From: Ruminiclostridium sp. | GTDB lineage: Bacteria > Bacillota > Clostridia > Oscillospirales > Ruminococcaceae | Length of the DNA: 33,379 nt | NCBI GenBank assembly: GCA_017941355.1 | Contig: JAGAWN010000239.1 | Span: forward strand, 1 to 33,379 | Reading direction: 5' to 3' | Part shown: positions 5,189 through 30,196 of the stretch, one piece after another | Layout of the letters: each line of letters begins with the position of its first letter | Numbering within the stretch: position 1 is the first letter of the stretch | Program-made: the position numbers and the translations under genes | The notes under the pieces: generated by a model | What the model was told of the DNA's origin: nothing | Database searches by the model: none | What the model saw: the letters and a program-made list of their open reading frames with translations, nothing else

Positions 5189-5950
5189 ATGGGAAAACGG
5201 ATAGGTATTCTTGACGAGGTACGCGGTCTTGCTTATATAGCAATGATCCTGTATCACGCGTATTACGATATTGTGTTTGTTTACGGGCATGATCTTCCGG
5301 ACTGGCTGGATACAGCGGCCCGCTTCACTCAGCCCTTTATCGCCGGTACATTCATTGTTGTAGCGGGTATTTCGTCGAACTTCTCCAACAACAATTTCAA
5401 GCGCGGAGTAACATACTTTTTCTTCGCAATGGCACTTACGTTTGTGACCGCAGTTGCTCTGCCGTCGGAAACGATAGTGTTCGGAGTGCTGCATTTCCTC
5501 GGTATTGCCGCGATGATCTACGGCTTTATCGGGAAGTTCACGGAGCATATCCCGTGGGTTATCGGAGTGGTGCTGTTCTCGCTCCTGTTTGCGGTGACGT
5601 TCAATCTGCCGCGGGGCTATATCGGGATCGACGGGATCTTCACTCTTCCGCTGCCCGGTTTCCTGTATGAGCATTACTGGCTATTCCCGCTGGGATTCGT
5701 GTCCGGTACGTTCTACAGCGCGGATTACTTCCCGCTTATCCCCTACTTCTTCCTGTTTCTTGCGGGTGCGTCGTTCGGGGAATACTTCCGTTCCGGTCAT
5801 GCTTCAAAAGGATTCGATATGACAAGGTTCAAAGGGCTTGCATTCCTCGGACGCCACGGACTTTGGATATATATGCTGCACCAGCCGATGACGATAATGA
5901 TACTTGAACTTGTGTTCAAGATCACGGGGCAGGGAACGGTTTTCCTGTGA
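5189..5950 (+). CDS. DUF1624 / heparan-alpha-glucosaminide N-acetyltransferase-like membrane protein
   Basis: A 253-aa polytopic membrane protein with about seven hydrophobic helices. The first carries RGLAYIAMILYHAYYDIVF, close to the conserved first-helix signature of the DUF1624/HGSNAT catalytic family, and the last helix region has GLWIYMLHQPMTIMI. This family is related to transmembrane acyltransferases that move acetyl groups across membranes to sugars, but the bacterial substrate is unknown. The Shine-Dalgarno GAGGAG (5177-5182) supports the ATG at 5189. It has its own candidate promoter and is not obviously linked to its neighbours. Confidence 0.8.
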   Translation: MGKRIGILDEVRGLAYIAMILYHAYYDIVFVYGHDLPDWLDTAARFTQPFIAGTFIVVAGISSNFSNNNFKRGVTYFFFAMALTFVTAVALPSETIVFGVLHFLGIAAMIYGFIGKFTEHIPWVIGVVLFSLLFAVTFNLPRGYIGIDGIFTLPLPGFLYEHYWLFPLGFVSGTFYSADYFPLIPYFFLFLAGASFGEYFRSGHASKGFDMTRFKGLAFLGRHGLWIYMLHQPMTIMILELVFKITGQGTVFL

Positions 5951-6021
5951 GCGTGATCCGCCGGTCTTTACGATGAAGTTACGGTGCGTATCTTACGGCG
6001 GGAGCAATGAAAGGAGTAAAT

Positions 6022-7164
6022 ATGTCAGAAGCAGACAGAAACAACGAAAACGAGATCTCACGCGATAAAAAGATAATCCGCACAAGCATTATCGGCATAA
6101 TAGCAAACGTGATGCTTGCGGGATTCAAGGCGGTAATGGGGATCATATCAAGTTCTATAGCGATAACGCTTGACGCGGTAAACAACCTTTCCGACGCGGC
6201 TTCCTCGGTCATTACAATAGCGGGGACCAAGCTTGCCGGGAAATCGCCGGATCGTAAGCACCCATTCGGTTACGGAAGAGTCGAATATCTCAGCGCTACG
6301 GTAATTTCGCTGATCGTCCTGTACGCCGGTATCACTTCCCTCACCGAATCCGTGAAGAAGATATTTGAACCGGAGACTCCGGATTATTCGCCCACCGTGC
6401 TTATCATAATCGGTGTGGCTGTGGCGGTAAAGATCGTGCTGGGAAGATATGTCAAGTCAGTCGGTGTAAGCACAAACTCGGATTCATTGATAAACTCCGG
6501 CGAGGACGCTACGCTGGATTCGATCATTTCCGCTTCGACACTTGCTGCGGCTGCGGTATATATGATATGGAACATTCAGCTTGAAGCATGGCTGGGAGCG
6601 ATCATTTCCGGTGTCATCATCAAATCCGGAATAGAGATGCTCACCGGGACGCTTTCGCAGATACTCGGCGAGAGCGCAGACGCTGAGACTGCACGCGGAA
6701 TAAAAGAAACGATCTGCTCTTTTCCGGAGGTTGAGGGAGCATACGATCTTGTGCTTAACAACTACGGTCCCGACAGATTCAACGGCTCGGTGCATATCGA
6801 GATCCCGGACACCTGCACAGCTACCCGGATAGACGAGCTTATCCGCGAGATAACATACACGGTTTATGAAAAGTATAACATAGTGCTTACCGGTATCAGT
6901 ATTTATGCCGTCAGCACCACAGATGCCGAAGCGATTGAGATGAGAAGTGCGCTTAAAGAGATAATCGCCGGTTCGGAGTATGTTCCGGAGTTTCATGCGC
7001 TTTCGGTTCAGAAAGAAGCGCGCACTGCGAGGTTTGATCTTGTTGTAAGTCTTGACGCGCCGGATCGCGCAAAGGAACTGCGCACGGTGGTTGAGAAGAT
7101 GAAGAGCAGATTTCCGGACTACACGTTCTATCCTGTAATAGATACCGATTTCACAGAGAGATAA
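6022..7164 (+). CDS. Cation diffusion facilitator transporter, probably manganese type
   Basis: A 380-aa CDF-family exporter that swaps cytoplasmic divalent metal for protons. Six helices are followed by a long cytoplasmic C-terminal domain with two ferredoxin-like parts (about 210-380), longer than FieF. Helix 2 has N54xxxD58 (VNNLSD) and helix 5 has D162xxxD166 (EDATLD). The zinc-type His in helix 5 is replaced by Asp, a pattern tied to Mn transport in characterised bacterial CDFs. KHPFGYGRVEY is the conserved loop after helix 2. The start is ATG 6022 because AAAGGAG (6010-6016) is spaced correctly; the ATG at 6007 overlaps that site. It converges on the SCP2 gene with a shared terminator. 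Confidence 0.9.
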   Translation: MSEADRNNENEISRDKKIIRTSIIGIIANVMLAGFKAVMGIISSSIAITLDAVNNLSDAASSVITIAGTKLAGKSPDRKHPFGYGRVEYLSATVISLIVLYAGITSLTESVKKIFEPETPDYSPTVLIIIGVAVAVKIVLGRYVKSVGVSTNSDSLINSGEDATLDSIISASTLAAAAVYMIWNIQLEAWLGAIISGVIIKSGIEMLTGTLSQILGESADAETARGIKETICSFPEVEGAYDLVLNNYGPDRFNGSVHIEIPDTCTATRIDELIREITYTVYEKYNIVLTGISIYAVSTTDAEAIEMRSALKEIIAGSEYVPEFHALSVQKEARTARFDLVVSLDAPDRAKELRTVVEKMKSRFPDYTFYPVIDTDFTER

Positions 7165-17322: not shown

Positions 17323-19635
17323 ATGAAATTTTCCGACGGATTCTGGCTGAACAAGCCCGGCTACAACGTAAGTTTTGCAACACAGAGCTATGACATTACC
17401 GCAGACGACAGATCGGTAACGGTATTCGCTACCGCGTCATGGATCCAGAACAGAGGTATGACTCTCGGCGGTCCCTGCCTGGAGATCACATTTACTTCCA
17501 CGCTGGAAAACTCGATCAAGGTCACGGTTGACCACTACAAGGGACAGATCCGCAGAGGACCCGCGTTTGAACTTTACGAGGATCCCGGTTTCAGACCGAC
17601 AGTGAATAAGCTCGATAACGGCGGTTATGAGCTTGTTTCCGGTAAGACAAAGGTAGTTATCGGTGCCGAGAAAGCCGCTTGGGACGTGAAATACTACTAC
17701 GGCGACAGATTGCTCACAAAGCAGGGCTGGCGCACCACAAGCTACATCGAGGAGAACGGTCAGCGCACGGAGAGCCGTATGCTTGCAAAGCGCGGCGAGA
17801 ATTTCTACGCCGACAGCGAGACTTCCGACAACGCTTTCATGCGCGATATGTTCAACATCGCGGTGGGCGAGAACATCTACGGCTTCGGCGAGAAGTTCAC
17901 CACTTTTGTGAAGAACGGTCAGACAGTTGAAGTCTGGAACAACGACGGCGGCACCTGCACCGAGCAGAGCTACAAGTCCGTACCGTTCTATGTTTCGTCG
18001 CAGGGCTACGGCTGTTTTGTGAACCACCCGGAAAAGGTGATGTTCGAGGTAGCGAGCGAGACTGTCTCTAAAGTCGCGTTCACCGTTCAGGGTCAGCACC
18101 TCGAATACTTCGTGTTCGGCGGTGACACCATAGCAGATGTTATAAAGGTATATACCGATCTTACCGGAAAGCCCGCGCTCCCGCCCGCTTTCACGTTCGG
18201 TCTGTGGCTCACGACATCGTTCACCACCGATTACGATGAAAAGACGGTTTCGTTCTTCATTGACGAAATGGAGCGCCGCGATATCCCGCTGGAAGTGTTC
18301 CACTTCGACTGCTTCTGGATGAAGGAATACAGCTGGTGCGACTTCACATGGGACAAGAAGATGTTCCCCGATCCGGCAGGTATCTTAAAGCGTCTGAAAG
18401 CGAAGAACGTGGAGATATGCGTCTGGATAAACCCGTACATTTCCCAGCACTCGTCGATGTTCGATGAGGGCATGGAGAACGGCTACTTCATAAAGAAGAA
18501 AGACGGTTCGGTGTTCCAGGCGGATATGTGGCAGCCCGGCATGGCTATCGTGGATTTCACAAATCCCGATGCCTGCAAGTGGTACGCGGATAAGCTGAAG
18601 GCTCTCTGCGAAATGGGCGTTGACGCGTTCAAGACCGACTTCGGCGAGCGTATTCCCACCGATGTCATCTACTATGACGGCTCCGACCCGTACAAAATGC
18701 ACAATTACTATACATACCTCTACAACAAGACAGTATTCGATGTTCTGAAAGACTACTACGGCGAGAACAAGGCGTGCCTGTTCGCGCGTTCGGCAACTGT
18801 CGGCGGACAGAAGTTCCCGGTGCATTGGGGCGGCGACTGCTTCTCAAACTACGAGAGTATGTGGGAGACTATACGCGGCGGACTTTCCCTCTGTATGTCG
18901 GGATTCGGCTTCTTCAGCCACGACATTTCCGGATTTGAAGCTACCGGTACTCCCGATCTTTACAAGCGCTGGTCTGCGTTCGGACTTATGTCCACACATT
19001 CGAGACTGCACGGCAACAGCTCTTACCGCGTTCCGTGGAACTTTGACGAGGAAAGCTGCGACGTTGTGCGCCACTTCACAAAGCTGAAAGGACGGCTGAT
19101 GCCGTATCTGTTCGCAAATGCGATAAAGACACATGAAACAGGTATCCCGATGATGCGCGCTATGGCTGTGGATTACACCCGTGATCCTGCTGTTCTGTCC
19201 CTTGACAGGCAGTATATGCTGGGTGACTCGCTGCTGGTGGCTCCCGTGTTCAATGAGGAGGGTACGGCGCAGTTCTACCTCCCCGGCACCGGCGTATGGA
19301 CGGATATCCAGACAGGTGAGCAGCTTGAAGGCGGCAGGTGGTATGAGAAGAAATACGACTACTTCGGAATGCCGCTGTACGCTAAGCCGGGTTCGATAAT
19401 TGCTTACGGCGATTTCAGGCGCAATTTCACCTACGACTACGCAAAGGGCGCAAAGCTTGTGGTTTACGGGCTGGACGACGGAGCCTCCGCAGAGACTGTC
19501 ATCTACGACAGCGAGGGAAAGTGTGTTCTGAAAGCGAAAGCTTCCCGCAGCGGGGACACGATCACCGTTACTTCGGAGGGCGAGAAGAACTTCACCGCTG
19601 AGAGCGCTCAGGGTTTGAATATAGTGATTCAATAA
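17323..19635 (+). CDS. yicI: GH31 alpha-xylosidase (YicI type)
   Basis: A 770-aa glycoside hydrolase family 31 enzyme that releases alpha-linked xylose from xyloglucan oligosaccharides. It is close to E. coli YicI in length and motifs. The nucleophile is Asp439 in FKTDFGERIPTDV, and the acid/base is Asp505 in HWGGDCFSNYESM; YicI has D416 and D482 in the same motifs. SGFGFFSHDISGFE and STHSRLHGNSSYRVPW also match. An N-terminal beta domain (1-280) precedes the barrel (about 290-600), and C-terminal beta domains follow. There is no signal peptide or dockerin, so it works in the cytoplasm on imported oligosaccharides. The LacI/cre-like operator predicts sugar control. No sugar transporter is adjacent. 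Confidence 0.92.
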   Translation: MKFSDGFWLNKPGYNVSFATQSYDITADDRSVTVFATASWIQNRGMTLGGPCLEITFTSTLENSIKVTVDHYKGQIRRGPAFELYEDPGFRPTVNKLDNGGYELVSGKTKVVIGAEKAAWDVKYYYGDRLLTKQGWRTTSYIEENGQRTESRMLAKRGENFYADSETSDNAFMRDMFNIAVGENIYGFGEKFTTFVKNGQTVEVWNNDGGTCTEQSYKSVPFYVSSQGYGCFVNHPEKVMFEVASETVSKVAFTVQGQHLEYFVFGGDTIADVIKVYTDLTGKPALPPAFTFGLWLTTSFTTDYDEKTVSFFIDEMERRDIPLEVFHFDCFWMKEYSWCDFTWDKKMFPDPAGILKRLKAKNVEICVWINPYISQHSSMFDEGMENGYFIKKKDGSVFQADMWQPGMAIVDFTNPDACKWYADKLKALCEMGVDAFKTDFGERIPTDVIYYDGSDPYKMHNYYTYLYNKTVFDVLKDYYGENKACLFARSATVGGQKFPVHWGGDCFSNYESMWETIRGGLSLCMSGFGFFSHDISGFEATGTPDLYKRWSAFGLMSTHSRLHGNSSYRVPWNFDEESCDVVRHFTKLKGRLMPYLFANAIKTHETGIPMMRAMAVDYTRDPAVLSLDRQYMLGDSLLVAPVFNEEGTAQFYLPGTGVWTDIQTGEQLEGGRWYEKKYDYFGMPLYAKPGSIIAYGDFRRNFTYDYAKGAKLVVYGLDDGASAETVIYDSEGKCVLKAKASRSGDTITVTSEGEKNFTAESAQGLNIVIQ

Positions 19636-20392: not shown

Positions 20393-20417
20393 TATTGAGA
20401 CTGAAATGAATAATATG

Positions 20418-20450
20418 AACAGCGGATCGGTGATCGGATCCGCTGTTTTT
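20418..20450 (+). terminator. Intrinsic terminator of the aquaporin gene
   Basis: AACAGCGGATC (20418-20428) pairs GATCCGCTGTT (20437-20447), eleven perfect pairs, and the T run continues to 20450. Confidence 0.92.
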
Positions 20451-20590: not shown

Positions 20591-20619
20591 TTGACGAGAG
20601 GGGAAAAAGATGTTAAAAT
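20591..20619 (+). promoter_or_regulatory. Promoter of the cohesin-like/dockerin cluster
   Basis: TTGACG (20591-20596), 17 bp, TAAAAT (20614-20619), with TG nearby. I find no equally good promoter before the next three genes, so it may drive the whole cluster. Confidence 0.7.
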
Positions 20620-20704: not shown

Positions 20705-22318
20705 ATGAAAGATACTTTTAAGTTAATATTGTATCTGTTATGTATAATTTTGACCGTTTCCGTGATCCCGGTAACCGCTTCCGCGGCGGCGGTAAACGGT
20801 ATAGGAGTCTCTTCCGATACGGTAAGTCCCGGCGGCAGTTTCACGGTCACGATAACCGTTCCTCCGCTTGAAAACGCGGATACCGCTTCGATACGGGTTT
20901 CTTTCGACTCCTCGGCTTTCGAGGTGGTTTCGTGGGAACCGTCGATCGCAAATTCGCTCTCAAACAGCGGAGAGGGCTTCTTCGTACTTACTTCCGCCAA
21001 CGCTTCGAGAGTGATCGAACTCGGCGGCGGTCTGACTCTTACGGCTCAGATGTCCGCAAAAGCCGGCGCTCCGGAGGGTACATATACTTTTACGCTTTCC
21101 GATCACAGCTTTTCGTATGTGGCGGACAACGGCTATGATTCTGTGGAACTCTGGTTCCCGGAGATTGCCTCGGCAAATATAACAGTAGGTTCAAAGCAGC
21201 CGGAACAGGCAGATCAACAGACTGAAAACAGCAGCGACGATAAGCCGGCTTCCGTTACTTCCACAACAACCGCACCCGTACAGACTCCGGAAACATCGTC
21301 AACTGCCGTGACCGCACGGACAACGAGCCGGACGGGATCCGATGACGAAGCGGCGGGTGACATATATAATTACGACGAAAATGATTACGAAAACGAGATC
21401 CCGGAGGACAGTGAGCCGGATCCCGACGGAGATACCACATCGCTGCCTTATACGGACGATAGTGACAGCCCTGCCGTGACGACCTCGGGTGACAGTGCGG
21501 CTCCCGCAAGAACATCACGGGAGGATACCGAGTCTTTGGCAGACGGCGGGGAAAACACCCGCAGCGGCAATACAGCCGGCAGCGCGGCTGCATCATCGGG
21601 AGCCACTCCGGAGGTCACGGGAGTTCTGGACGAAGCGGCGGGAGGAGATACCACAAGACCCGCTGCCGTGCGGAACAACGACTCGGACATTATACTCAGA
21701 TCCGGGCTTTCCGGGCTTACTCAGGGACAGGTGAAAGCTTCGACCAAGCGCGAGTATTTCTACGGAAACACGGAGATACGGTTCAGCAATTCCGACAGTG
21801 CCGACAAAAACGCGGCTGCCGCATTGAAAAGTTCCGGTCTGGAGGGACACGGCTACTACGCTTTTGACATCAGCCTTTATGATTTGGATTCCGGCAGTGC
21901 GATACATTCGCTCCCGGAGGGATATATAGAGTTCTCGGTGCCGGTCCCGAAAAACCTTGCGGGCAGAGGCGGAGATCTCAGCGTATATCACATTGCAAAC
22001 GGTGCGGCACAGCTTGTGACAGGCAGTGCGGCTTCCGAAAACGGACAGTATTATGTCAGATTCCGCGCGGCGGAGTTCTCCACATACGTTATTGTCGATA
22101 TGTCCGACAGCGGCGGTGCTGCGGCAGTACAGCCGAGCCGGCCGTCACAGGCAAGTACGGCGGCACAGTCTTATCCCGCGGCTTCCGGCGGTGTGCCGCG
22201 CAACCCGAATACGGGCGTGACTGCGGCAATAGCGATACCCTCGGTACTTATTGTGTGCTCTGTTCTTTCAAAAAAGGGCAGGAACAGGAGAAAGCGCACT
22301 AAGAAATCAATAGAATAG
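20705..22318 (+). CDS. Wall-anchored protein with one cohesin-like domain
   Basis: A 537-aa exported protein. The signal peptide (1-29) ends TASAAA. One cohesin-like beta-sandwich lies at 30-162 (start GIGVSSDTVSPGGSFTVTI, core FEVVSWEPSI, end ELWFPEI). A long acidic Ser/Thr/Asp linker (164-335) follows. A second globular module (about 340-467, with YYAFDISLYD and FSTYVIVD) recurs near the C-terminus of the 1477-aa scaffold. The end is a sorting signal: NPNTG at 500-504, a hydrophobic helix, and a Lys/Arg tail. By analogy with cellulosomal anchoring scaffoldins, it would hold a dockerin protein at the wall. The start at 20705 is chosen for its signal peptide and the GAGAGG site; ten more in-frame residues upstream lack one. 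'Cohesin-like' is a pattern-based remote assignment. Confidence 0.72.
   Translation: MKDTFKLILYLLCIILTVSVIPVTASAAAVNGIGVSSDTVSPGGSFTVTITVPPLENADTASIRVSFDSSAFEVVSWEPSIANSLSNSGEGFFVLTSANASRVIELGGGLTLTAQMSAKAGAPEGTYTFTLSDHSFSYVADNGYDSVELWFPEIASANITVGSKQPEQADQQTENSSDDKPASVTSTTTAPVQTPETSSTAVTARTTSRTGSDDEAAGDIYNYDENDYENEIPEDSEPDPDGDTTSLPYTDDSDSPAVTTSGDSAAPARTSREDTESLADGGENTRSGNTAGSAAASSGATPEVTGVLDEAAGGDTTRPAAVRNNDSDIILRSGLSGLTQGQVKASTKREYFYGNTEIRFSNSDSADKNAAAALKSSGLEGHGYYAFDISLYDLDSGSAIHSLPEGYIEFSVPVPKNLAGRGGDLSVYHIANGAAQLVTGSAASENGQYYVRFRAAEFSTYVIVDMSDSGGAAAVQPSRPSQASTAAQSYPAASGGVPRNPNTGVTAAIAIPSVLIVCSVLSKKGRNRRKRTKKSIE
21722..22105 (+). repeat. Juxtamembrane module, copy 1 (shared with the scaffold protein)
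   Basis: Residues 340-467 of the 537-aa protein align by eye with residues 1265-1410 of the 1477-aa scaffold. Shared pieces are Y-A-F-D-I-S-x-Y, I-H-S-L-P-x-G-Y-I, a YH(I/V)-(A/E)NG turn and an F-S-x-Y-x-x-V-D end. Confidence 0.7.
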
Positions 22319-22369
22319 CGGAGTCAGGGATGACCTGGGACACCGCGATGACAGAAAGGACGGTCTGAA

Positions 22370-23404
22370 ATGAAGGTAAAAAGGATTTTATCAACAATAG
22401 CGGCTGTTGCTGTTGCCCTGTGCAGTTTCAGCCTGCCGGCGATCACCGGCGTATCGCCGCCTATGGCGGTAACGGTCAGTGCTGCGGAAACCGATGTGAA
22501 CGGTATTACCGCAACAAAGGAGAGAGTGAGGCGCAATGAGTCTTTCGACATTGTGGTAAATGTCCCGCCCGCTGCCGAGACAGCGGACACAGTGGAGATA
22601 AGACTTTCCTTCGATCCGGAAGTTTTTGAGGTGACAAGCTGGAATCCGTCAGTTTCCGGCGGATCTTCCCAGAAGAACTACGACAACTCAAAGGGCTTTG
22701 CGATCCTGGCGGCTGCAAACTCCGATGTGAACCTGAGCGGCGGACTCACGTTCTCGGCAACGGTAAGAGCGAAAAACAGCGCTCCCACCGGTGCGCATAC
22801 TTTCCGCCTTTCCCGCGGAGATGTCAGCAACACCGAAACAGGCTACAGCTGGCAGCCCGAAACCAGGGAGGTTTCCGTAAAAGTGGTTGACAGGATAGTC
22901 TCCGTATCCGGAAGCGTTTATATGACCGCGCAGGAACTTCCGAAAAACTTCGACGGCACCGCTTCGGTAGTTATGACCGACAGCATCGGAAAAACGTCAC
23001 GGGTGACTGTCGAAATGGAACCTTCAAGTGACGGTGTCACATACGAGGGATTCTATATGTTCTCCGACGCTGAAAGTGAAGAAACCTACACGATCAGAAC
23101 GGAAGTAGGCGGCTGCACGGTCCGCACCGAAACTCTGAAGCTGGAATTCTCGTCCGTGAACATGGATATGAAGATGAACATCAAAGGAGATGTGGACGGA
23201 GACGGACGCATCGGAGCCTCCGACGCTACCCAGATACTTAAATTCCTTGTCGGTTCGGTTTCGGTAATAAGAGATTCGCAGGGGATCCTGAACGAGTATC
23301 TGTACGATGTTGCCTGCGTGGACGGCGGCGAGCTTTCTCCGAGAGACGCAACACAGATACTTCGTCATGTCGCGGAATTTCCGTCGGTCTTTGACAACAT
23401 TTAA
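22370..23404 (+). CDS. Secreted adaptor: cohesin-like domain, Ig-like module, C-terminal dockerin
   Basis: A 344-aa exported protein with no wall anchor. The signal peptide is about 1-39. One cohesin-like domain lies at 43-173 (VNGITATKERVRRNESFDIV, FEVTSWNPSV, SWQPET). A small all-beta module spans 177-270. The dockerin spans 272-343: repeat 1 is GDVDGDGRIGASDATQILKF, with calcium ligands D274, D276, D278 and D285, and repeat 2 keeps RDATQILRH but has a poor loop. Carrying both module types, it could dock by its C-terminus to one cohesin and present another, as cellulosomal adaptor scaffoldins do. It starts 51 bp after the anchored protein with AAAGGA (22355-22360) and no promoter between, so it belongs to the same operon. 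The dockerin call is strong, the cohesin call moderate. Confidence 0.78.
   Translation: MKVKRILSTIAAVAVALCSFSLPAITGVSPPMAVTVSAAETDVNGITATKERVRRNESFDIVVNVPPAAETADTVEIRLSFDPEVFEVTSWNPSVSGGSSQKNYDNSKGFAILAAANSDVNLSGGLTFSATVRAKNSAPTGAHTFRLSRGDVSNTETGYSWQPETREVSVKVVDRIVSVSGSVYMTAQELPKNFDGTASVVMTDSIGKTSRVTVEMEPSSDGVTYEGFYMFSDAESEETYTIRTEVGGCTVRTETLKLEFSSVNMDMKMNIKGDVDGDGRIGASDATQILKFLVGSVSVIRDSQGILNEYLYDVACVDGGELSPRDATQILRHVAEFPSVFDNI
23183..23398 (+). other. Dockerin domain of the 344-aa adaptor
   Basis: First loop D274-V-D276-G-D278 with D285 as the last ligand. In the second loop the three first ligand positions fall on A315, V317 and G319, and only D326 is kept. About 30 residues separate the two halves. 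Confidence 0.8.
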
Positions 23405-23444
23405 GGATGAATGTTGATTTATTTAATGAAAGGAATGGAAAATC

Positions 23445-24803
23445 ATGAAAAAAAGAAGACTTTTATCAGTATTTGCGGCATTTGCGGTAGCCGCAGCGAG
23501 CATAGTCGTCCCCGCCGATACCGGTTTCGGCGGAAATATCCAGGTAAGCGCTGCGCCTGTTGCTCAGGTTGAAAAGGGCGGTCTTACACTGACAAAGGTA
23601 GGAGCTGCCGACAATGATATTCTCGTCAGCGACGATACATACGTCAATTCTTTGAAGCCCGGCGATCTCGTACAGCTCAACATTCTTGTTCCCGAACTCA
23701 GCTGCGATCTTATCAACATGGATCTCAAGGTATCCTACGATCAGAGCATCTTCTATGTTTATCAGTGGTACAAAAGAGGAAATACCGATGTTGATATCCT
23801 GGCTGACGACGGCAGAACAGTCATAGCGAATACCTCCGCCTGGCCGTATCCGGGACCTGATTTCAGCGGTACCGACGGTGACGTGAACTACGACAACGGA
23901 TATCTTACGCTTTCCTGCGCAGGTCACCCCGATGAGACCTCGGCAAGTGAGGACAGACAGATAACCGCGTTCAATACCGTTGATTCCACAACAACCGACG
24001 GAGCCACAAAGTATCTGCCGTTCACCGCTATCTTCAAAGTAAAGGATACAGTAAGCCAGATCAGCAATTTCAACTTTGAGATCATAATGAAAGAACCCGG
24101 TGTTATTCCTGCCGACGGTAAAGACGGCACATCGCTCGACTGGGCAGATGACGGTGATGAGGACGATGACACCCAGTGGGTATCCGTATGGCAGCCGCAG
24201 GAAACCACAGCTACAACTATCGGACGTACGGTAGGCGGAAGTGTTGCCAAGACGATAACAGGCAGGGTGACCGGATATGATTTTACAGACGACGCAAACC
24301 AGATAGACCTTGCCGCAAAGCCTATGCAGATACAGATATACGGTACTCCCAGCGGTACTTCCGTTGACCCGTGGTACGGTCCTGTTCCGGAAACTATCCT
24401 TGATACCGTTACGGTTGACCCCACTGACGGAACTTTTGAGATCAGGGGACTTGAGCCGAGCAAGCAGTACACTCTGAAAATAAACGCATGGTGCCTTGAG
24501 GACGAAAGGACTATCACAACCGACAGCAATATGGATCAGGACCTTTCTGACTGGAACATCTGGATGTACGGTGACGTAAATCATTCCGGAACGATAGACG
24601 CGGGCGATGCTACGTCAGTTCTCAAATTCATCGTCGGCAAGACCAGCGCTATTACTTATTCCAACGGCGCGGGAAATGACCAGTACAAGTCAGGAAACGT
24701 GTTCAACAGCGATGCTATCAACGCAAGAGACGCTACACAGATCCTCAGAAAGTCCGTAAATCTTCCGTCTGTGTATGATGACAATCATCTGAAAGCATTC
24801 TGA
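23445..24803 (+). CDS. Secreted adaptor: large cohesin-like domain, beta module, C-terminal dockerin
   Basis: A 452-aa exported protein without a wall anchor. The signal peptide (about 1-36) is followed by a large divergent cohesin-like domain (44-255), enlarged by an acidic insertion (ADDGDEDDDTQW) and ending VSVWQPQE. A module resembling carboxypeptidase-regulatory or SdrD-type folds follows (268-370, with GTFEIRGLEPSKQYTLKI). The dockerin spans 374-446: D377, N379, S381 and D388 form loop 1, and the second repeat keeps ARDATQILR with a degenerate loop. It follows the 344-aa adaptor by 40 bp with an AAAGGAATGG ribosome site, clearly in the same operon. Its dockerin is paralogous to that of the neighbour, so both may bind the same partner. 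Confidence 0.75.
   Translation: MKKRRLLSVFAAFAVAAASIVVPADTGFGGNIQVSAAPVAQVEKGGLTLTKVGAADNDILVSDDTYVNSLKPGDLVQLNILVPELSCDLINMDLKVSYDQSIFYVYQWYKRGNTDVDILADDGRTVIANTSAWPYPGPDFSGTDGDVNYDNGYLTLSCAGHPDETSASEDRQITAFNTVDSTTTDGATKYLPFTAIFKVKDTVSQISNFNFEIIMKEPGVIPADGKDGTSLDWADDGDEDDDTQWVSVWQPQETTATTIGRTVGGSVAKTITGRVTGYDFTDDANQIDLAAKPMQIQIYGTPSGTSVDPWYGPVPETILDTVTVDPTDGTFEIRGLEPSKQYTLKINAWCLEDERTITTDSNMDQDLSDWNIWMYGDVNHSGTIDAGDATSVLKFIVGKTSAITYSNGAGNDQYKSGNVFNSDAINARDATQILRKSVNLPSVYDDNHLKAF
24567..24782 (+). other. Dockerin domain of the 452-aa adaptor
   Basis: First loop D377-V-N379-H-S381 with D388. The second loop has N418, F420 and S422 at the first three ligand positions. It ends NLPSVYDD, like EFPSVFDN in the paralogue. 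Confidence 0.78.
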
Positions 24804-24831
24804 TCGTTTTCGTCTTATGTAAATAATTAAC

Positions 24832-24862
24832 GTACTTTCCCTGCACGCCGCGGGGAAAGTAC
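24832..24862 (+). promoter_or_regulatory. Intercistronic hairpin 1 before the scaffold gene
   Basis: GTACTTTCCC (24832-24841) pairs GGGAAAGTAC (24853-24862), ten perfect pairs plus two more inside. No T run follows, so it is not a standard terminator. Confidence 0.7.
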
Positions 24863-24868
24863 AAAACT

Positions 24869-24921
24869 GACAGCCCGTTTCCGGCGGAAAGCTATATGCC
24901 GCAGGGAACCGGGTCACTGTC
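24869..24921 (+). promoter_or_regulatory. Intercistronic hairpin 2, ending just before the scaffold Shine-Dalgarno
   Basis: A long imperfect stem: GACAG/CTGTC outside, CCCGTTTCC paired with GGGAACCGGG with one bulge, and GCGG/CCGC inside. Its foot is two bases before AAGGAAGG (24924-24931). It may shield the transcript 5' end after processing or limit initiation (inference). Confidence 0.6.
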
Positions 24922-24940
24922 ATAAGGAAGGATCAATATT

Positions 24941-27900
24941 ATGGTGAGGGTAAGAGGATTAAGGATCATATCTCTGATCTTGTCGGTCATGATGTTTGTT
25001 TCGCTTATTACCGTTCCTGCCGGCGCCGCCGAAGGGGAGTACAACGGTATCTACGTCATGAACGAGGGTGTTCTTGACGATACGATCTACGATCTGGAGA
25101 GGGACAACCCGAATAACAACAAATTCAAGGTTTACATAAAGTCACCCGCTCTGACAAGCGATGCGGATGATGTGTACGTTTATGTTCAGTATGATCCCGA
25201 AGTGCTTCAGTTTGTAAGCTGGGACAAGATCATAAGCGGTTTCGGAGAGGACAAGCAGCAGCTCGGCCCGGAGATCGACAGCTCCACCGGACTTCCGAAG
25301 AATAACGGTTCCTTTGCACTTGTTGTTTCCACGGCTCCTCCGAAGGGAAGCACGGATCTTCCGCAGGTACCTCTGCTCGGACGGGGACTTGATATTGAAG
25401 CTACCCTCATGGTAAAGCCCACAGCAAAAACGACCCAGACCACAGTTACACTTACCAGATATGACATTTCTCTCGCTGACAGAAGCGCGGAGCAGAACCC
25501 GCCTACTCCCCTGTGGGATACCACCGGCATACAGGAGCAGGTCACGATCAACATAAAACGTCCCACATTCCCGATAACGAGTGAGGGCGACGGCATCTCG
25601 GTCAACAAGGAAATAGTGGATAACGATGATACACTTGAGGTAAACGTTGATATACCGGCTATCGCATGGAACGCAGATGACCCGAAAATCAAAATAGAAT
25701 ATGACGATACAGCTTTTGATTTCAAAGGCTGGAAAACCGGTATCGGTACGCCGATAGAGAACAATAACGAGCATTGGTTCGGACTCAGGTTATCAAACGA
25801 TGATCTCGACAAGCCGCTGCACCTTGTGGCGGAGCTTACGCCGAAGTCTTCAGGCACTCCTAAGGATTGCACGTTCACGCTGATACCGGATATGACCGAA
25901 GCAGGCGAGGATCTGTGGGATCCGGACAATGAGACGGCGACGGTTCGTGTCACCGGACTTCCCGATACTACCGGCGGTATTACTATCGAGGATCCCGCCC
26001 GTGTACAGCGCGGCGAAACATTTGATGTGAAGATAAAAGTCCCGAAACTGGAACAGCAGGTCGATACAGTCTCCATAAAGGCGGTTTTTGACCCGACGCA
26101 GTTTGAAGTTGTAAGCTGGACTCCCTCCATTCCCGGGGCGGATATAAATGCCGATTTCAGCAACAGCGAGGGAACTTTCTTCCTGACAGCCAATACCGGC
26201 AGCGCAAGCATAGATCTTCACGACGGATTCACCTTTACCGCAAAAATGCGTGCAAAGAAAGACTCTGAGCGTAAGAATCACACCATTAAACTTACCGACG
26301 CGAAAATGACACGGCAGGAGAGCGGGCGCACACAGAGAGTATGGCAGCCTGCAAAAGTGACTGCCGACATAGAGGTGTACGACGTATATCCCGTGACGGA
26401 GGGAGGCATCAGCCTTTCAACTCCCACCGTGGGCGATGAGGGCAGCTTCCGCGTAAACGTGAAGATACCCGAGATATACACCGCAGCCGACAGATTCACG
26501 GTTACGGTAAATTACAACCCCGATGTATTTGAAATAACATCTCTCGACTCCGATGCGGCAAACGTAACGACTTCAAGAGGCGCTTCAAGCTTCACTTTCT
26601 CCTCCGACGGCACTGATGTCGGTCTTAAAAACGGCATTACGCTTTCGGCAGACATGAAAGTCAAGCCGGACGTAGATTCCGGAAACTATAAGTTCAGTAT
26701 TACGGACTACAAGGTTTTTGAGGGCGACACGGAACTGTGGATCCCGAAAACCAAGGAAGCCGAAATAAAAGTCGCTGTTACCGGAGATACACCTGCGGCA
26801 GGCGGCGGTATAAGAGCAACGAAGTCACTTGCGGAATACGGCGACACTTTCAATGTTATCGTTGAAGTTCCGTCAATTCCTTTCATGGCTGACACGGCAG
26901 ACATTGCGGTCCTGTATGAATCAACGGTGTTTGAGGTCCTGCAGGTCGAACCGTCTGTCAGCAATGTTGCTGTAACAAACGAGCCGGGGAGATTCGGAAT
27001 AGCTTCCGCCGGTGACAGCATAAGCCTTTCCGATCCGCTTAAGATCACGGCTCAGGTGAGAGTGCGCGACGGTGCCGCAAAGGGCAATCACAGCTTCCTG
27101 CTTTCAAAGAATGTCCTGACCCGTACCAAAGCTACGGGCAAGGAGCAGGTACTCTGGAAGCCCACATCGACTTCCGCGCCGGTTTATGTCTCCGACGGTA
27201 CGGAAAACCCCACTGCCGGCGGCGGACTCAGCCTTTCCGACTCTGTTATCGATGCCGGTGACACCGTTACGGTAACGGTCAGAGTACCCGGACTTGAGGC
27301 AAATGTAGGAAACGCGCGGGTAAAGGTGGATTTCGACGGCACTAAGTTTGAAGTAAGATCGCTGAGTTCAAGCGTTTCCGGCTTTACCTCCTCCGACGGA
27401 GAGGGATACTTCACATTCACAGCCACCGATGCGGACATCTCGCTGAAGGACGGCGTTGTGTTCACGGCAAAGCTTAAATCAAGCACGTCGGCTTCCGGAA
27501 ACTACGGCTTCCGGCTTTCCGAAAGCAATATGCTTTCAAAGGATCTCGGGACAGCTCTGTGGATCCCCTCAAACGTTTCCGAAACACTCAAAGTAAACGG
27601 CAAAACCGTTGATCCGGCAGACGATGATGATTTTCCGGTTACCGGAGGCAGCATTACTCTTTCGCAGTCTCAGATAAAACCCGGAGACACGGTTGCGGCA
27701 ACCGTCAGGATCCCTCCCATGCAGGCAGAGGCGGAGGATCTGTATATAATGGTGGATTTCAACAGTTCCGCTTTTGATGTGGTTTCATGGTCTCCGTCGG
27801 TACGCGGCGGAATACCGACTTACGGTTCGGGTTATTTCTCGCTTTCCGCGGCGGATACGTCGGTGGATCTCAGCAACGGTCTTACGCTGACCGCAAATCT

Positions 27901-29374
27901 GAGAGCGAGATCAGGCGCGAATGACGGAAGCTACACATTCAGACTTACAAACTCGGACGTTTACGGGACTCCCTACAGCGAAAGTCTGTATCAGAGACTC
28001 TGGACGCCGTATTCTACGGCAGACACGGTGCGGATCTACTCCGGTTCGACTCCTGCTTCTCAGAGTCAGAACGGCGGCGGTATCAGCGTTTCGCGTTCCG
28101 AGGTCTATACAGGCGATGTGTTCACGGTGTATGTGAACGTTCCTTCGGTGAACGACTGGGCAGACGCGGCTTCAATGCGGGTTGACTACGATCCGAACGT
28201 ATTCGAGCTTGTGTCGTGGGATCCCGGCGTGAACGGCTGTTCGGCGACAAACGGCTACGGGTATTTCGGGCTTGAATCATATTCAAACGCCGCGATAAAT
28301 ATGAACTACGGATTCACGTTCTATGCCACACTCAGAGCAAAGAACTATGCCAATCTCGGAAGATACTCGCTGAATCTTTCAAGAGCCAGCTTCACTTCCG
28401 GCGGTACAAGACTCTGGAATCCGACAAGCAATACCGCTTATGTAACGGTAACTTCGTATTCTGTTTATTCCGGCTACAACTACCCCTGGAATCAGCTTCC
28501 CCCTCCGCCTCCCGACAACAGAAACAACAACACAAATAATAACAATAATAAACCAACGACCCCGTCAAACGATGACAAGAGCGATATAGAATACATCGAC
28601 GACGATGATGATGACAGCAGCAGACGTAACAGCATCTACGACGACGATGATGATTACACTCCCCCGGATGCTCCCGACTATGATGATTATGATGATGAGC
28701 AGCCGGACGGACAGACGAATATTCCCGCTCATGACGTTTCTCTCCAGCTCAATACCGATCTCACCGAGATACGCGGCAAAAATGTAAATATTGTCACAAA
28801 GTACAGATTCTTCACAGACAAGACCCTGATATTCATCAGGAATACGGAGCAGGCTGACAGATGTGCCGAGGCTGCGCTGAATGAACTGGGAATGTCTGAC
28901 CACAAGAGCTATGCTTTTGATATCAGCGTTTACAATGTGGTTACCGGCGAGTACATACATTCGCTCCCCGGCGGATATATCGACTTCAACATTCCGATAC
29001 CCACATCGCTTGCTTCGTCACCCTCCACTCTGCTTGTTTATCATGTGGAGAACGGTGTTCCGGAGTATATCGACAGTTCCGTGATCTATGAGGACGGACA
29101 GCAGAAACTGCATTTCCGCGCAAATTCGTTCTCACCGTATATGTTTGTGGATACGCTCAATCTGAAGCAGTCCGGATATACTCCCTCCACATCGGGAGTA
29201 AACAGACCGGACGCAAACATCACGATTAATTCCGGTTCTTCCGGATCGGGCATAGACAGAAACGCGAACCCTAACACAGGTTCCGCGGCGATAATCGTCA
29301 TTCCGGCGGCTATCGGCGGCTGTCTGCTTCTTGCAAAGAAAGACAAGAAGCGCAAGAGAAGTTCAAGAAGATAA
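24941..29374 (+). CDS. Wall-anchored scaffold with eight tandem cohesin-like domains
   Basis: A 1477-aa exported protein. The signal peptide (1-30) ends PAGAA. Eight cohesin-like domains lie at about 34-206, 212-340, 343-480, 485-615, 618-752, 758-888, 900-1035 and 1044-1175. Each starts with a G-(I/L)-(S/T) strand, has F-x-V-x-S-W/L-x-P in the middle and ends L-W-x-P. A Pro/Asn/Asp-rich linker (1187-1262) and a globular module shared with the 537-aa protein (1265-1410) follow. The end is NPNTG (1443-1447), a hydrophobic helix and a basic tail, so it should be fixed to the wall by sortase. Multi-cohesin layout and two dockerin proteins just upstream suggest a scaffoldin that collects dockerin partners. 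The start has AAGGAAGG (24924-24931). Confidence 0.8.
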   Translation: MVRVRGLRIISLILSVMMFVSLITVPAGAAEGEYNGIYVMNEGVLDDTIYDLERDNPNNNKFKVYIKSPALTSDADDVYVYVQYDPEVLQFVSWDKIISGFGEDKQQLGPEIDSSTGLPKNNGSFALVVSTAPPKGSTDLPQVPLLGRGLDIEATLMVKPTAKTTQTTVTLTRYDISLADRSAEQNPPTPLWDTTGIQEQVTINIKRPTFPITSEGDGISVNKEIVDNDDTLEVNVDIPAIAWNADDPKIKIEYDDTAFDFKGWKTGIGTPIENNNEHWFGLRLSNDDLDKPLHLVAELTPKSSGTPKDCTFTLIPDMTEAGEDLWDPDNETATVRVTGLPDTTGGITIEDPARVQRGETFDVKIKVPKLEQQVDTVSIKAVFDPTQFEVVSWTPSIPGADINADFSNSEGTFFLTANTGSASIDLHDGFTFTAKMRAKKDSERKNHTIKLTDAKMTRQESGRTQRVWQPAKVTADIEVYDVYPVTEGGISLSTPTVGDEGSFRVNVKIPEIYTAADRFTVTVNYNPDVFEITSLDSDAANVTTSRGASSFTFSSDGTDVGLKNGITLSADMKVKPDVDSGNYKFSITDYKVFEGDTELWIPKTKEAEIKVAVTGDTPAAGGGIRATKSLAEYGDTFNVIVEVPSIPFMADTADIAVLYESTVFEVLQVEPSVSNVAVTNEPGRFGIASAGDSISLSDPLKITAQVRVRDGAAKGNHSFLLSKNVLTRTKATGKEQVLWKPTSTSAPVYVSDGTENPTAGGGLSLSDSVIDAGDTVTVTVRVPGLEANVGNARVKVDFDGTKFEVRSLSSSVSGFTSSDGEGYFTFTATDADISLKDGVVFTAKLKSSTSASGNYGFRLSESNMLSKDLGTALWIPSNVSETLKVNGKTVDPADDDDFPVTGGSITLSQSQIKPGDTVAATVRIPPMQAEAEDLYIMVDFNSSAFDVVSWSPSVRGGIPTYGSGYFSLSAADTSVDLSNGLTLTANLRARSGANDGSYTFRLTNSDVYGTPYSESLYQRLWTPYSTADTVRIYSGSTPASQSQNGGGISVSRSEVYTGDVFTVYVNVPSVNDWADAASMRVDYDPNVFELVSWDPGVNGCSATNGYGYFGLESYSNAAINMNYGFTFYATLRAKNYANLGRYSLNLSRASFTSGGTRLWNPTSNTAYVTVTSYSVYSGYNYPWNQLPPPPPDNRNNNTNNNNNKPTTPSNDDKSDIEYIDDDDDDSSRRNSIYDDDDDYTPPDAPDYDDYDDEQPDGQTNIPAHDVSLQLNTDLTEIRGKNVNIVTKYRFFTDKTLIFIRNTEQADRCAEAALNELGMSDHKSYAFDISVYNVVTGEYIHSLPGGYIDFNIPIPTSLASSPSTLLVYHVENGVPEYIDSSVIYEDGQQKLHFRANSFSPYMFVDTLNLKQSGYTPSTSGVNRPDANITINSGSSGSGIDRNANPNTGSAAIIVIPAAIGGCLLLAKKDKKRKRSSRR
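25040..28465 (+). repeat. Eight tandem cohesin-like domain repeats
   Basis: Approximate starts in the DNA: 25040, 25574, 25967, 26393, 26792, 27212, 27638 and 28070. Domains 3-8 are 130-140 residues each and clearly related. Domain 1 is longer and domain 2 more divergent (F-D-F-K-G-W in place of F-E-V-x-S-W). The copies are not near-identical, so the array is old or its members have different binding roles. Confidence 0.75.
28499..28726 (+). repeat. Low-complexity Pro/Asn/Asp linker with trinucleotide-like runs
   Basis: It codes for PPPPPDNRNNN and Asn runs, then repeated Asp-rich blocks. The DNA has AAC/AAT runs near 28519-28551 and GAY runs at 28597-28615, 28638-28656 and 28678-28697. Confidence 0.8.
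28733..29170 (+). repeat. Juxtamembrane module, copy 2
   Basis: Residues 1265-1410 of the scaffold. Shared marks with the 537-aa protein include YAFDISVYN, HSLPGGYIDF, YHVENG and FSPYMFVD. The module sits between the linker and the sorting signal in both proteins. Confidence 0.7.
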
Positions 29375-29376
29375 CC

Positions 29377-29402
29377 GTAAGGGCGCAGTGATGCGCCCTT
29401 AC
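29377..29402 (+). terminator. Hairpin after the scaffold gene, no U tract
   Basis: GTAAGGGCGCA (29377-29387) pairs TGCGCCCTTAC (29392-29402), eleven perfect pairs around GTGA. The next bases are ATAATATTT. It is a weak terminator or an mRNA stabiliser that lowers expression of the last gene relative to the scaffold. Confidence 0.5.
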
Positions 29403-29422
29403 ATAATATTTGAGGAAAAGAT

Positions 29423-30196
29423 ATGAACCTTATTATGAAGAAAGCCCTTATCGCAGCCGCAGCAGTCGCGGCTTTCGGTACATTCACTGCCGCAGCGGGT
29501 GCGGAGCAGGTGAACGGGATATCGGTTTCAGACAGCGTTCTCGGTCAGGGCAGCGAATTCACGCTTGAGATCTCCGTGCCGCCTGCCGAAAACGCGGATA
29601 CCGCGTCGGTAAAGGCTGTGTTTGATGAGCAGGCTTTTGAAGTTCTGGAATGGAAACCCGTGATCTCCGGCGGATTCGCCAATGCACAAAACGGCAGGAT
29701 AGCACTTTCCGCTGCAAATGTGGAGCGGAACATTGATCTCAGCGAGGGGCTTACGCTTACCGCAAAGATGCGCGTGAAAGACGATGCGCCGGAGGGGGAT
29801 TATGTTTTTGAACTGAATAAACACAGCTTTTCGTATGTGCTTGAGGACGGATTCACATTTGAGGAAGTGTGGCTGCCGGAAATAACGAACGTCACGGTAA
29901 CGGTAGGCGCACTCTCCCGGACGGAAGCTTCAGAAGAACAAACAGCTGCTGCCGCGGCAGTAACAGAACAGACGGAAACAACTTCGCCGGTCACCGCGCC
30001 CGCGGAAACGGAAATCACGGAGGCAGACACATCCGCCGATCAGACGATCGCCGTTACGGAGCAGAATGCAGCCGTAAATAGTCCGGATTCCGGAATCAAT
30101 ACTGTCGCGGTAGCGATAGTAGCCGTTCTCGCTGTCGCAGTCGTTGCGATCTTAGCCGCTGTTATAGTTCTGATATTGAAAAAGCCGCGTAAGTGA
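29423..30196 (+). CDS. Membrane- or wall-anchored protein with one cohesin-like domain
   Basis: A 257-aa exported protein. The signal peptide (about 1-28) is followed by one cohesin-like domain (29-162, QVNGISVSDSVLGQGSEF, FEVLEWKPVI, EVWLPEI). An Ala/Thr/Glu linker (163-217) leads to SPDSG (220-224), a long hydrophobic helix and KKPRK. SPDSG is at the place of the NPxTG signals on other proteins here, but differs, and the hydrophobic segment is longer, so it may stay in the membrane. Its domain is closest to that of the 537-aa protein: HSFSYV and (L/F)PEI are shared. ATG 29423 has GAGG at 29412-29415; ATG 29435 is an alternative. It is the last gene of the cluster, closed by a terminator. 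Confidence 0.72.
   Translation: MNLIMKKALIAAAAVAAFGTFTAAAGAEQVNGISVSDSVLGQGSEFTLEISVPPAENADTASVKAVFDEQAFEVLEWKPVISGGFANAQNGRIALSAANVERNIDLSEGLTLTAKMRVKDDAPEGDYVFELNKHSFSYVLEDGFTFEEVWLPEITNVTVTVGALSRTEASEEQTAAAAAVTEQTETTSPVTAPAETEITEADTSADQTIAVTEQNAAVNSPDSGINTVAVAIVAVLAVAVVAILAAVIVLILKKPRK

Follow-up and report, generated by a model that had tools for sequence, protein, structure and literature searches.

Cohesin–dockerin assemblies are known mainly as enzyme machines. We describe here a gene cluster from a Ruminiclostridium sp. (family Ruminococcaceae) that encodes the parts of such an assembly. The window analysed is the whole of contig JAGAWN010000239.1 of GenBank assembly GCA_017941355.1, 33,379 bp in length, and it carries on its + strand, between positions 20705 and 30196, five genes (A to E) that are separated by intergenic gaps of 51, 40, 137 and 48 bases and encode 12 cohesins and 2 dockerins (Table 1). 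A and E have a single cohesin each, B and C are adaptors that join a cohesin to a dockerin, and D is an eight-cohesin scaffold. A preliminary description of this DNA had noted five adjacent genes supplying an anchor, adaptors and a scaffold, and ten or more cohesin-like domains in all; five open reading frames, all on the + strand, do lie where it placed them, and Pfam and profile searches agree with its parts list. Parts that it did not record are an extra module between the cohesin and the dockerin of B and C, a C-terminal domain (CTD) common to A and D, and a second cluster on another contig of the same genome.

Homology of the cohesin and dockerin domains

By sequence homology, the domains of the window are cohesins and dockerins. 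The Pfam Cohesin family (PF00963) matches A at 24.4 bits, against a cut-off of 24.1, and D in five stretches with 108 bits; B scores 20.3 bits, below the cut-off. C and E have no Pfam Cohesin match and are called cohesins because they are homologous to the remaining cohesins by profile. Dockerin_1 (PF00404) matches B and C at 16.9 and 17.2 bits in the window, both below the cut-off of 22.9, and in the genome search the C dockerin reaches 21.9 bits, or 24.6 with its neighbours in frame; several orthologues exceed the cut-off. Since alignment-based searches contain their own queries, the domains were retested with leave-one-out profiles, each lacking the tested domain and controlled with 50 shuffles per domain, and with profiles built from congeners only. 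The leave-one-out profiles recovered all 18 cohesins of the genome (24.6–158.4 bits versus 1.3–7.8 for the best shuffles) and all 3 dockerins (59.1–69.5 versus 2.5–7.5 bits), and the congener-only profiles detected all 12 cohesins of the window, eight of them in D and one apiece in the other four proteins, together with both of its dockerins. The cohesin of C is the weakest: two of its six orthologues come near the Pfam cut-off (23.4 and 23.2 of 24.1 bits), and the other four have no Pfam cohesin match at E 0.01–0.1. Among solved structures, the cohesin profile matches 6kgc and 2vn5 (best E 8.4e-4), which we take to be type I cohesins, and the dockerin profile matches solved dockerins (best E 1.5e-6); a phmmer search of the same structures with scaffold D alone returned 0 matches at E 0.1. 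The first dockerin repeat, read by eye, is canonical, and the DATQI motif of the second is identical in 29 of the 29 dockerins of this type described below. Chance or an unrelated repeat as the source of these domains is rejected on the Pfam, leave-one-out and congener profile results.

Anchoring and accessory modules

The preliminary description had counted both single-domain proteins as anchored. This holds for A, which like D ends in an NPNTG sorting signal; all 13 A-type proteins of the genus have the sorting motif, a hydrophobic stretch and a basic tail. E has no NPXTG motif and is probably anchored in the membrane instead, because it ends in a hydrophobic helix followed by a short basic tail, as do 10 of the 11 E-type proteins. 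The CTD, of about 135 residues, precedes the NPXTG signal and has no Pfam match in A and D. It is present in 13/13 A-type, 15/17 D-type and 8/8 other anchored proteins, and one of the two D-type proteins without it is truncated at the end of its contig.

The module between cohesin and dockerin is called X-like by its position, as for the X-module of X-dockerin dyads. X-modules in Ruminococcus stabilise dockerins and make the complex mechanically stronger (PMC7456326). A CarboxypepD_reg match (E<=0.01, mostly below the cut-off) precedes the dockerin in 6/8 cargo proteins, in 5/7 proteins with the order leucine-rich repeat (LRR), cohesin, X-like module and dockerin (LRR-coh-X-doc), and in 2/7 B-type proteins, and the remaining two LRR-coh-X-doc proteins have an SdrD_B match in its place. 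The five window proteins gave no carbohydrate-binding-module match at E<=10 (scaffold H, described below, was not in that scan).

Table 1. Features of the window (contig C125) and of the second cluster (contig C165). Promoter-like and hairpin features are consensus matches only.
Feature	Position	Strand	Evidence or remark
Gene A: signal-peptide-like N-terminus, 1 cohesin, low-complexity linker, CTD, NPNTG sorting signal	20705..22318	+	
Cohesin of A	20792..21193	+	Pfam 24.4 bits; leave-one-out 158.4 bits
CTD of A (shared C-terminal domain)	21695..22102	+	without Pfam match
NPNTG motif of A	22202..22216	+	N, P, T and G invariant in 13 A-type proteins
Gene B: soluble cohesin – X-like module – dockerin adaptor, no anchor	22370..23404	+	
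Cohesin of B	22496..22891	+	Pfam below cut-off; leave-one-out profile
X-like module of B	22892..23173	+	aligns with CarboxypepD_reg-like modules of relatives; no Pfam match of its own
Dockerin of B	23174..23401	+	Pfam below cut-off; leave-one-out profile
Gene C: soluble divergent cohesin – intervening module – dockerin adaptor, no anchor	23445..24803	+	
Divergent cohesin of C, boundaries approximate	23568..24200	+	leave-one-out 24.6 bits versus best shuffle 1.3; congener profile 40.3 bits
Dockerin of C, second dockerin class	24564..24785	+	Pfam below cut-off; profile; tree
Gene D: 8-cohesin scaffold, acidic linker, CTD, NPNTG	24941..29374	+	
D cohesin 1	25037..25564	+	profile
D cohesin 2	25580..25960	+	profile
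D cohesin 3	25967..26386	+	profile
D cohesin 4	26393..26782	+	profile
D cohesin 5	26795..27199	+	profile
D cohesin 6	27212..27604	+	profile
D cohesin 7	27638..28045	+	profile
D cohesin 8	28067..28462	+	profile
CTD of D	28748..29155	+	189 bits
NPNTG motif of D	29267..29281	+	NCBIfam Rumino_NPXTG 15.1 of 23.5 bits, below cut-off
Gene E: 1 cohesin, linker, C-terminal hydrophobic helix, no NPXTG	29423..30196	+	
Cohesin of E	29510..29911	+	leave-one-out 136.8 bits; no Pfam match
F (contig C165): 860 residues; Cthe_2159 (E 1e-41), InlB-type repeat, CarboxypepD_reg-like module, dockerin			Pfam
G (contig C165): single-cohesin NPHTG protein			
H (contig C165): five-cohesin NPATG scaffold			
Terminator-like hairpin after upstream aquaporin gene	20417..20448	+	consensus scan
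Promoter-like site TTGACG-17-TAAAAT, TG before second hexamer, upstream of gene A	20591..20619	+	consensus scan
Hairpin between D and E, weak T tract	29377..29402	+	consensus scan

A second cluster in the same genome

The genome (G000; genomes, contigs and loci are designated by G, C and L numbers) is a bin of 4.5 Mb (4519719 bases) in 300 contigs, with 98.99% completeness and 3.97% contamination, in which the window is contig C125. Its size compares with 1.0–3.8 Mb for the 70 congeners searched and may reflect a real expansion or a mixed bin. An 18-domain alignment search found cohesins only on C125 (12) and C165 (6), where genes F, G and H form a second cluster; F also matches the solved structure 4peu. 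The genome thus has two NPXTG-anchored scaffolds, with eight (D) and five (H) cohesins. We use cognate for dockerins that co-occur with these cohesins, a label that does not refer to binding. At E<=0.1, strong matches of this dockerin type are confined to B, C and F, two of the three being adaptors, so that 18 cohesins stand beside 3 cognate dockerins, none on a recognisable enzyme. The full-genome search for same-type dockerins that the preliminary description had proposed found F in addition to B and C. Its characterisation of the locus as self-contained is wrong for the window and could be right for the genome as a whole.

With a dockerin profile expanded to 29 rows, a single further match, a weak one of 19.2 bits, appears in this genome, on a protein of contig C297 (L014:7908-10259) of about 790 residues with CHB_HEX_C and Fn3_assoc repeats and a generic, mid-protein dockerin (Dockerin_1). 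A G341:C22 protein (L260:3581-5965) has the same architecture and approximate length by Pfam, and a Dockerin_1 match in an open frame of 781–862 residues occurs in 16/18 cohesin-bearing genomes, the two frames just named being those checked with Pfam. The position of the dockerin, its score and the presence of matches in similar-length frames also in the four genomes without cognate dockerins led us to reject the C297 protein as obvious cargo; it is a possible partner.

Distribution and conservation in related genomes

The genomes of the genus are fragmented assemblies. In the genus set (71 genomes, own included), where all first-look candidates were scored, cohesins of this type occur in 18 genomes. 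A first scan of named genomes with D alone gave no relatives; a second, with alignment A3, gave 18 loci, all from metagenome-assembled genomes (Ruminiclostridium sp., uncultured Ruminococcus sp., Ruminococcaceae bacterium UBA3215 and Clostridia), several of them from the rumen, omasum and abomasum of goats, the rumen of water deer and the rectum of roe deer. We reject the idea of a system confined to a single contig, since genomes of congeners have the same parts. Strong dockerins (E<=5.5e-12, first profile) are found in 14/18 cohesin-bearing genomes versus 1/53 others of the genus, with a Fisher p of 1.8e-10 that is too optimistic because species relatedness is uncorrected.

Annotation of 34 fetched stretches of the genus with the same cohesin and dockerin profiles, and assignment of protein types A to E, L and S by our own rules, gave for the 18 genomes 13 A, 11 E, 7 B, 7 C, 7 LRR-coh-X-doc, 17 D and 8 other anchored proteins with 2–4 cohesins. 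The totals are 29 dockerins and 145 cohesins, the latter from fetched loci with their own domain calls (144 by genome search; one G347 contig was unfetched), and some of the scaffold cohesins have diverged strongly, scoring as little as 28 bits. Genes B, C and D are consecutive in six genomes (our own, G350, G325, G353, G326 and G347), and each of these stretches also holds A, E or both. In seven of the eight loci with a cargo dockerin, an anchored protein with 2–5 cohesins lies at most two genes from the cargo gene; at the remaining locus, L149, an E-type gene takes its place, and the dockerin gene is truncated by the end of the contig.

First-look candidates were partially scored in many genomes of the family (297 genomes) and order (394) samples, which makes absences there weak. 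Sixteen family genomes besides our own have a cohesin match at E<=0.001 (best 1.3e-16, G064), and 44/297 have a dockerin match at that threshold, mostly weak. In G064, which belongs to a different genus of the family, the gene for a dockerin protein precedes one for a single-cohesin protein (L084:2-3738, contig C31), a small version of the pairing. The 29-row dockerin profile matches 17/394 genomes of the order sample (own included) at 1e-8, the best match outside the genus being 1.9e-19 (G403).

In a tree of 142 of the 145 cohesins (3 outside 100–190 residues dropped; 136 columns, many forks unresolved), the B type requires one change and the A and E types two each, and 0/500 shuffles gave values as low. 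The dockerin tree sets the C type apart (99/98 support) and joins the B type into one weakly supported group (64/72), with cargo dockerins intermixed with those of LRR-coh-X-doc proteins. Two dockerin classes (C versus B plus cargo) and the cohesin classes A, E and B are conserved between species. Since these classes group across species, the component roles probably predate the species, as would be expected if each cohesin class meets its own dockerin class. Of the two interpretations offered earlier, a surface assembly with its own interaction code is favoured by this tight dockerin family, its two classes and its co-occurrence mainly with these cohesins.

Dockerin cargo

The other interpretation, the core of a new cellulosome whose cargo lies elsewhere, is right in that dockerin cargo does lie elsewhere, on C165, and finds no Pfam enzyme domain to support it: 0/29 cognate dockerin proteins, from 14 genomes, have one. 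The 29 carriers are 7 B, 7 C, 7 LRR-coh-X-doc and 5 LRR-X-doc proteins, one with Cthe_2159, one with InlB repeats and one (L139) with no N-terminal Pfam match, whose pre-dockerin region weakly matches a solved cellulosomal scaffoldin chain (E 0.073); a solved-structure search with the L148 protein gave nothing useful. LRR_5 occurs in 12/15 cognate dockerin proteins other than B and C, none of these 12 being in our genome, and most cargo in relatives carries LRR_5 domains of the BspA type. A Wzy_C (O-antigen-ligase-like) gene adjoins the LRR-dockerin gene in two genomes (L132:7351-9039 and L149:2978-4669), which may hint at a connection with surface polysaccharide. In our genome the Cthe_2159 domain sits on the separate cargo protein F, not on a window scaffold. 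Cellulose and the acid sugars of pectin are ligands of Cthe_2159 proteins (PMC6712302), and the distant relatives of this family include a predicted cluster of fibrillar-adhesin domains (PMC9210967). Fibronectin and fibrinogen are ligands of T. forsythia BspA, which, like LrrA, also promotes co-aggregation and adhesion (PMC2843621).

Other genes and signals of the window

The genes scanned around the cluster are ordinary: upstream, those for an AMP-binding ligase, glutamine synthetase III, a cation efflux protein, ribosomal protein S2, AddB, TrkH, a GH31 glycoside hydrolase and an aquaporin, and downstream, MatE and HMGL-like genes. The GH31 gene (17323-19635) has no dockerin; its presence corrects the earlier remark that the window holds no enzyme. 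The strong hairpin between D and E could set the E:D ratio.

Discussion

We consider it rather probable that the locus encodes the structural core of a cellulosome-like assembly, free of enzymes, by which adhesin-like cargo is displayed on the cell surface. We propose that A and D are held on the cell wall through their sortase signals and E through its membrane helix. The dockerin of adaptor B or C would plug into a cohesin of an anchored protein, and the adaptor's own cohesin would take a further dockerin, so that the array is extended and branched. Because B and C would each use one dockerin class for docking and contribute one further cohesin, multiple copies of a small number of gene products could suffice to fill the eight-cohesin rods and branch them, with the two dockerin classes and the separate cohesin classes setting the order of assembly. 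The terminal dockerin proteins appear from their architectures to be of binding type, a Cthe_2159 beta-helix here and mostly BspA-type LRR proteins in relatives, and the product may be a multivalent coat whose function is attachment, to plant fibre, to mucus or to other cells, and not the digestion of a polymer. A more specific proposal, to which we give an even chance, is that this is a dedicated enzyme-free adhesion organelle, built of multi-cohesin rods, two adaptor types, LRR and beta-helix heads and a private two-class dockerin code, that falls outside the four Hungate1000 categories of Clostridiales considered below.

Several observations weigh against the proposed enzyme-free surface assembly. 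Four of the 18 genomes (G317, G333, G342 and G349; 80–91% complete) have an anchored protein with 2–4 cohesins and no cognate dockerin, so some cohesins may not need one; the anchored proteins of these loci (L156, L158, L154 and L157) carry the CTD. The second calcium loop of the cognate dockerins looks degenerate by eye, with the helix and the leading Asp kept. The cargo of our own genome is a single protein, F, which might be catalytic, given the likeness of the Cthe_2159 structure to PL9 pectate lyases (PMC6712302). The cargo proteins of L139 and L148 have long regions without any Pfam match. Dockerins of other types also exist in these genomes, some on enzymes. G341 has a GH5 cellulase, with a C-terminal dockerin, and two other proteins with DVLxIRKYI-type dockerins (L258:4219-5967 and 5933-6772, L259:3396-3953), and G347:C306 encodes an N-terminal dockerin followed by a flavodoxin domain and cut by the contig end (L264:2559-3134); as judged from their sequences, the dockerins associated with GH5 and flavodoxin are not of the cognate type. 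The non-cognate Dockerin_1 matches examined were those of G000, G341, G318:C55, G347 and G348:C3, with G350:C18, by eye in a solute-binding-protein-like protein, and with G318:C34 left out. Outside the genus, fairly close dockerins are not confined to binding proteins, since G403 (L254-L256), of another family of the order, carries them on cohesin, transglutaminase-core and SpoIID proteins by Pfam, so that possible enzymes are among the bearers of related dockerins there.

These observations bear on other explanations as well. The locus could be the remnant of an enzyme cellulosome, or an incompletely sampled one, whose dockerin-bearing enzymes have disappeared, are encoded on contigs absent from the assembly or have dockerins so diverged that they escape detection. 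The component types do match those of the R. flavefaciens cellulosome (PMC5301203), the assemblies are fragmented, and the GH5 protein of G341 has a dockerin, of another type; but our genome is nearly complete, Dockerin_1 and the 29-row profile found no enzyme with a cognate dockerin in 18 genomes, the cargo is non-enzymatic by Pfam in 14, and the cohesin classes are conserved and not decaying, and we regard either case as unlikely. It is also conceivable that the cohesin-like domains of the wall proteins are stalk or adhesive beta-sandwich repeats that bind no dockerin, for which the four genomes with anchored cohesin repeats and no cognate dockerin, the excess of cohesins (145 to 29) and the divergence of some scaffold cohesins could all be cited. 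We doubt this, given that strong dockerins occur in the genus almost only with these cohesins, that both domains share clusters and even proteins, and that both profiles match solved cohesins or dockerins.

Spare cohesins might, alternatively, form a docking station that captures dockerin proteins released by neighbouring species. Seven congeners (G301, G303, G304, G305, G307, G310 and G312; L117-L121, L125 and L127) have 3–17 dockerin-profile matches and no cohesin by Pfam or the A1 profile, and some of their dockerins end like the cognate ones, as in DALQILRY...SVFD of L118. Their recognition helices differ (DAL or DVL versus DAT), and Pfam finds dockerin or EF-hand domains only in ten dockerin proteins of congeners, each from a different genome and most of them trimmed to some 500 residues ahead of the dockerin; capture of this kind seems quite improbable to us. 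The size of the bin beside those of its congeners, its contamination and its 300 contigs could suggest that the two clusters come from different organisms, but both kinds co-occur in other bins (G350, L131 and L132; G320, L143-L145; G347, L146 and L147), which makes a binning artefact very improbable indeed. An enzyme-free surface assembly is therefore the reading that we carry forward: the earlier observation is confirmed and its interpretation partly supported, and we take the system to be a real, conserved and probably undescribed variant in which the cohesins and dockerins are predicted to interact.

If they bind as predicted, the module pair would be a general, self-assembling kit for surface display and a source of new, perhaps orthogonal, cohesin–dockerin pairs, and it would open a route to asking how uncultured gut bacteria attach to fibre, mucus and each other. 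Non-cellulosomal cohesin- and dockerin-like modules are themselves not new: those described by Peer et al. in 2009 were reportedly mostly isolated, without a conserved multi-protein set of anchor, adaptor and scaffold. A limited search of the open-licence literature found no description of an enzyme-free cohesin–dockerin system. Such a system could have been missed by surveys because dockerin-bearing enzymes are used as the definition; in one recent survey a single dockerin-fused glycoside hydrolase was the minimum requirement, and metagenome sequences were excluded (PMC11557425). The Hungate1000 analysis divides Clostridiales into those with neither module, those with few dockerins and no cohesins, those with many of both, and those with many dockerins and few cohesins (PMC6118326), four categories from which many cohesins with few dockerins, the state found here, is absent.

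By the defining feature of cellulosomes, dockerin-bearing enzymes, the predicted system is not a cellulosome, and it differs in the same respect from other gut assemblies. Like the R. bromii amylosome it has cohesin-bearing scaffoldins, two of which carry a C-terminal sortase signal in that species, but the amylosome core consists of five dockerin-bearing GH13 enzymes (PMC5814915), with no counterpart here. Like the Limousia mucinolysome, and the C. perfringens system compared with it, it is a gut cohesin–dockerin system that would not be directed at cellulose, whereas the mucinolysome is defined by dockerin-bearing mucin-degrading enzymes (PMC12997984). Most cargo shares LRR_5 with BspA-type LRR surface proteins, whose known members are not described, in the available part of the source, as displayed by dockerins (PMC2843621); in the BspA–dockerin literature, judged by title and abstract, we found no report of such display.

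The closest parallels are with the cellulosome of R. flavefaciens FD-1, where ScaE is a sortase-anchored single cohesin, ScaF and ScaH are cohesin–dockerin adaptors and ScaI is an LRR-cohesin-dockerin protein (PMC5301203, PMC2930009), and where LRR-dockerin proteins and an X-module beside some dockerins (ScaB and CttA XDoc) are found as well (PMC5301203, PMC2930009). The group 4 dockerins of that species, which include those of ScaF, ScaH and ScaI, bind the ScaE cohesin (PMC5301203); since the component types are the same, the present system may, by analogy, work like this part of the R. flavefaciens one. The dockerin proteins of R. flavefaciens contain 28 leucine-rich-repeat modules, and about half of its dockerins go with carbohydrate-active enzymes (PMC2930009), unlike the cognate dockerins described here, which accompany enzymes in none of 29 cases, are outnumbered by cohesins (18 to 3) and bear a DATQILR signature of their own. 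It has been suggested that some interactions of group 4 dockerins might serve to structure the cell surface (PMC2930009), a suggestion that the present system, if correctly read, makes concrete. We conclude that the component types are those known from the enzyme-rich R. flavefaciens cellulosome and that what is new is their enzyme-free, cohesin-heavy configuration.

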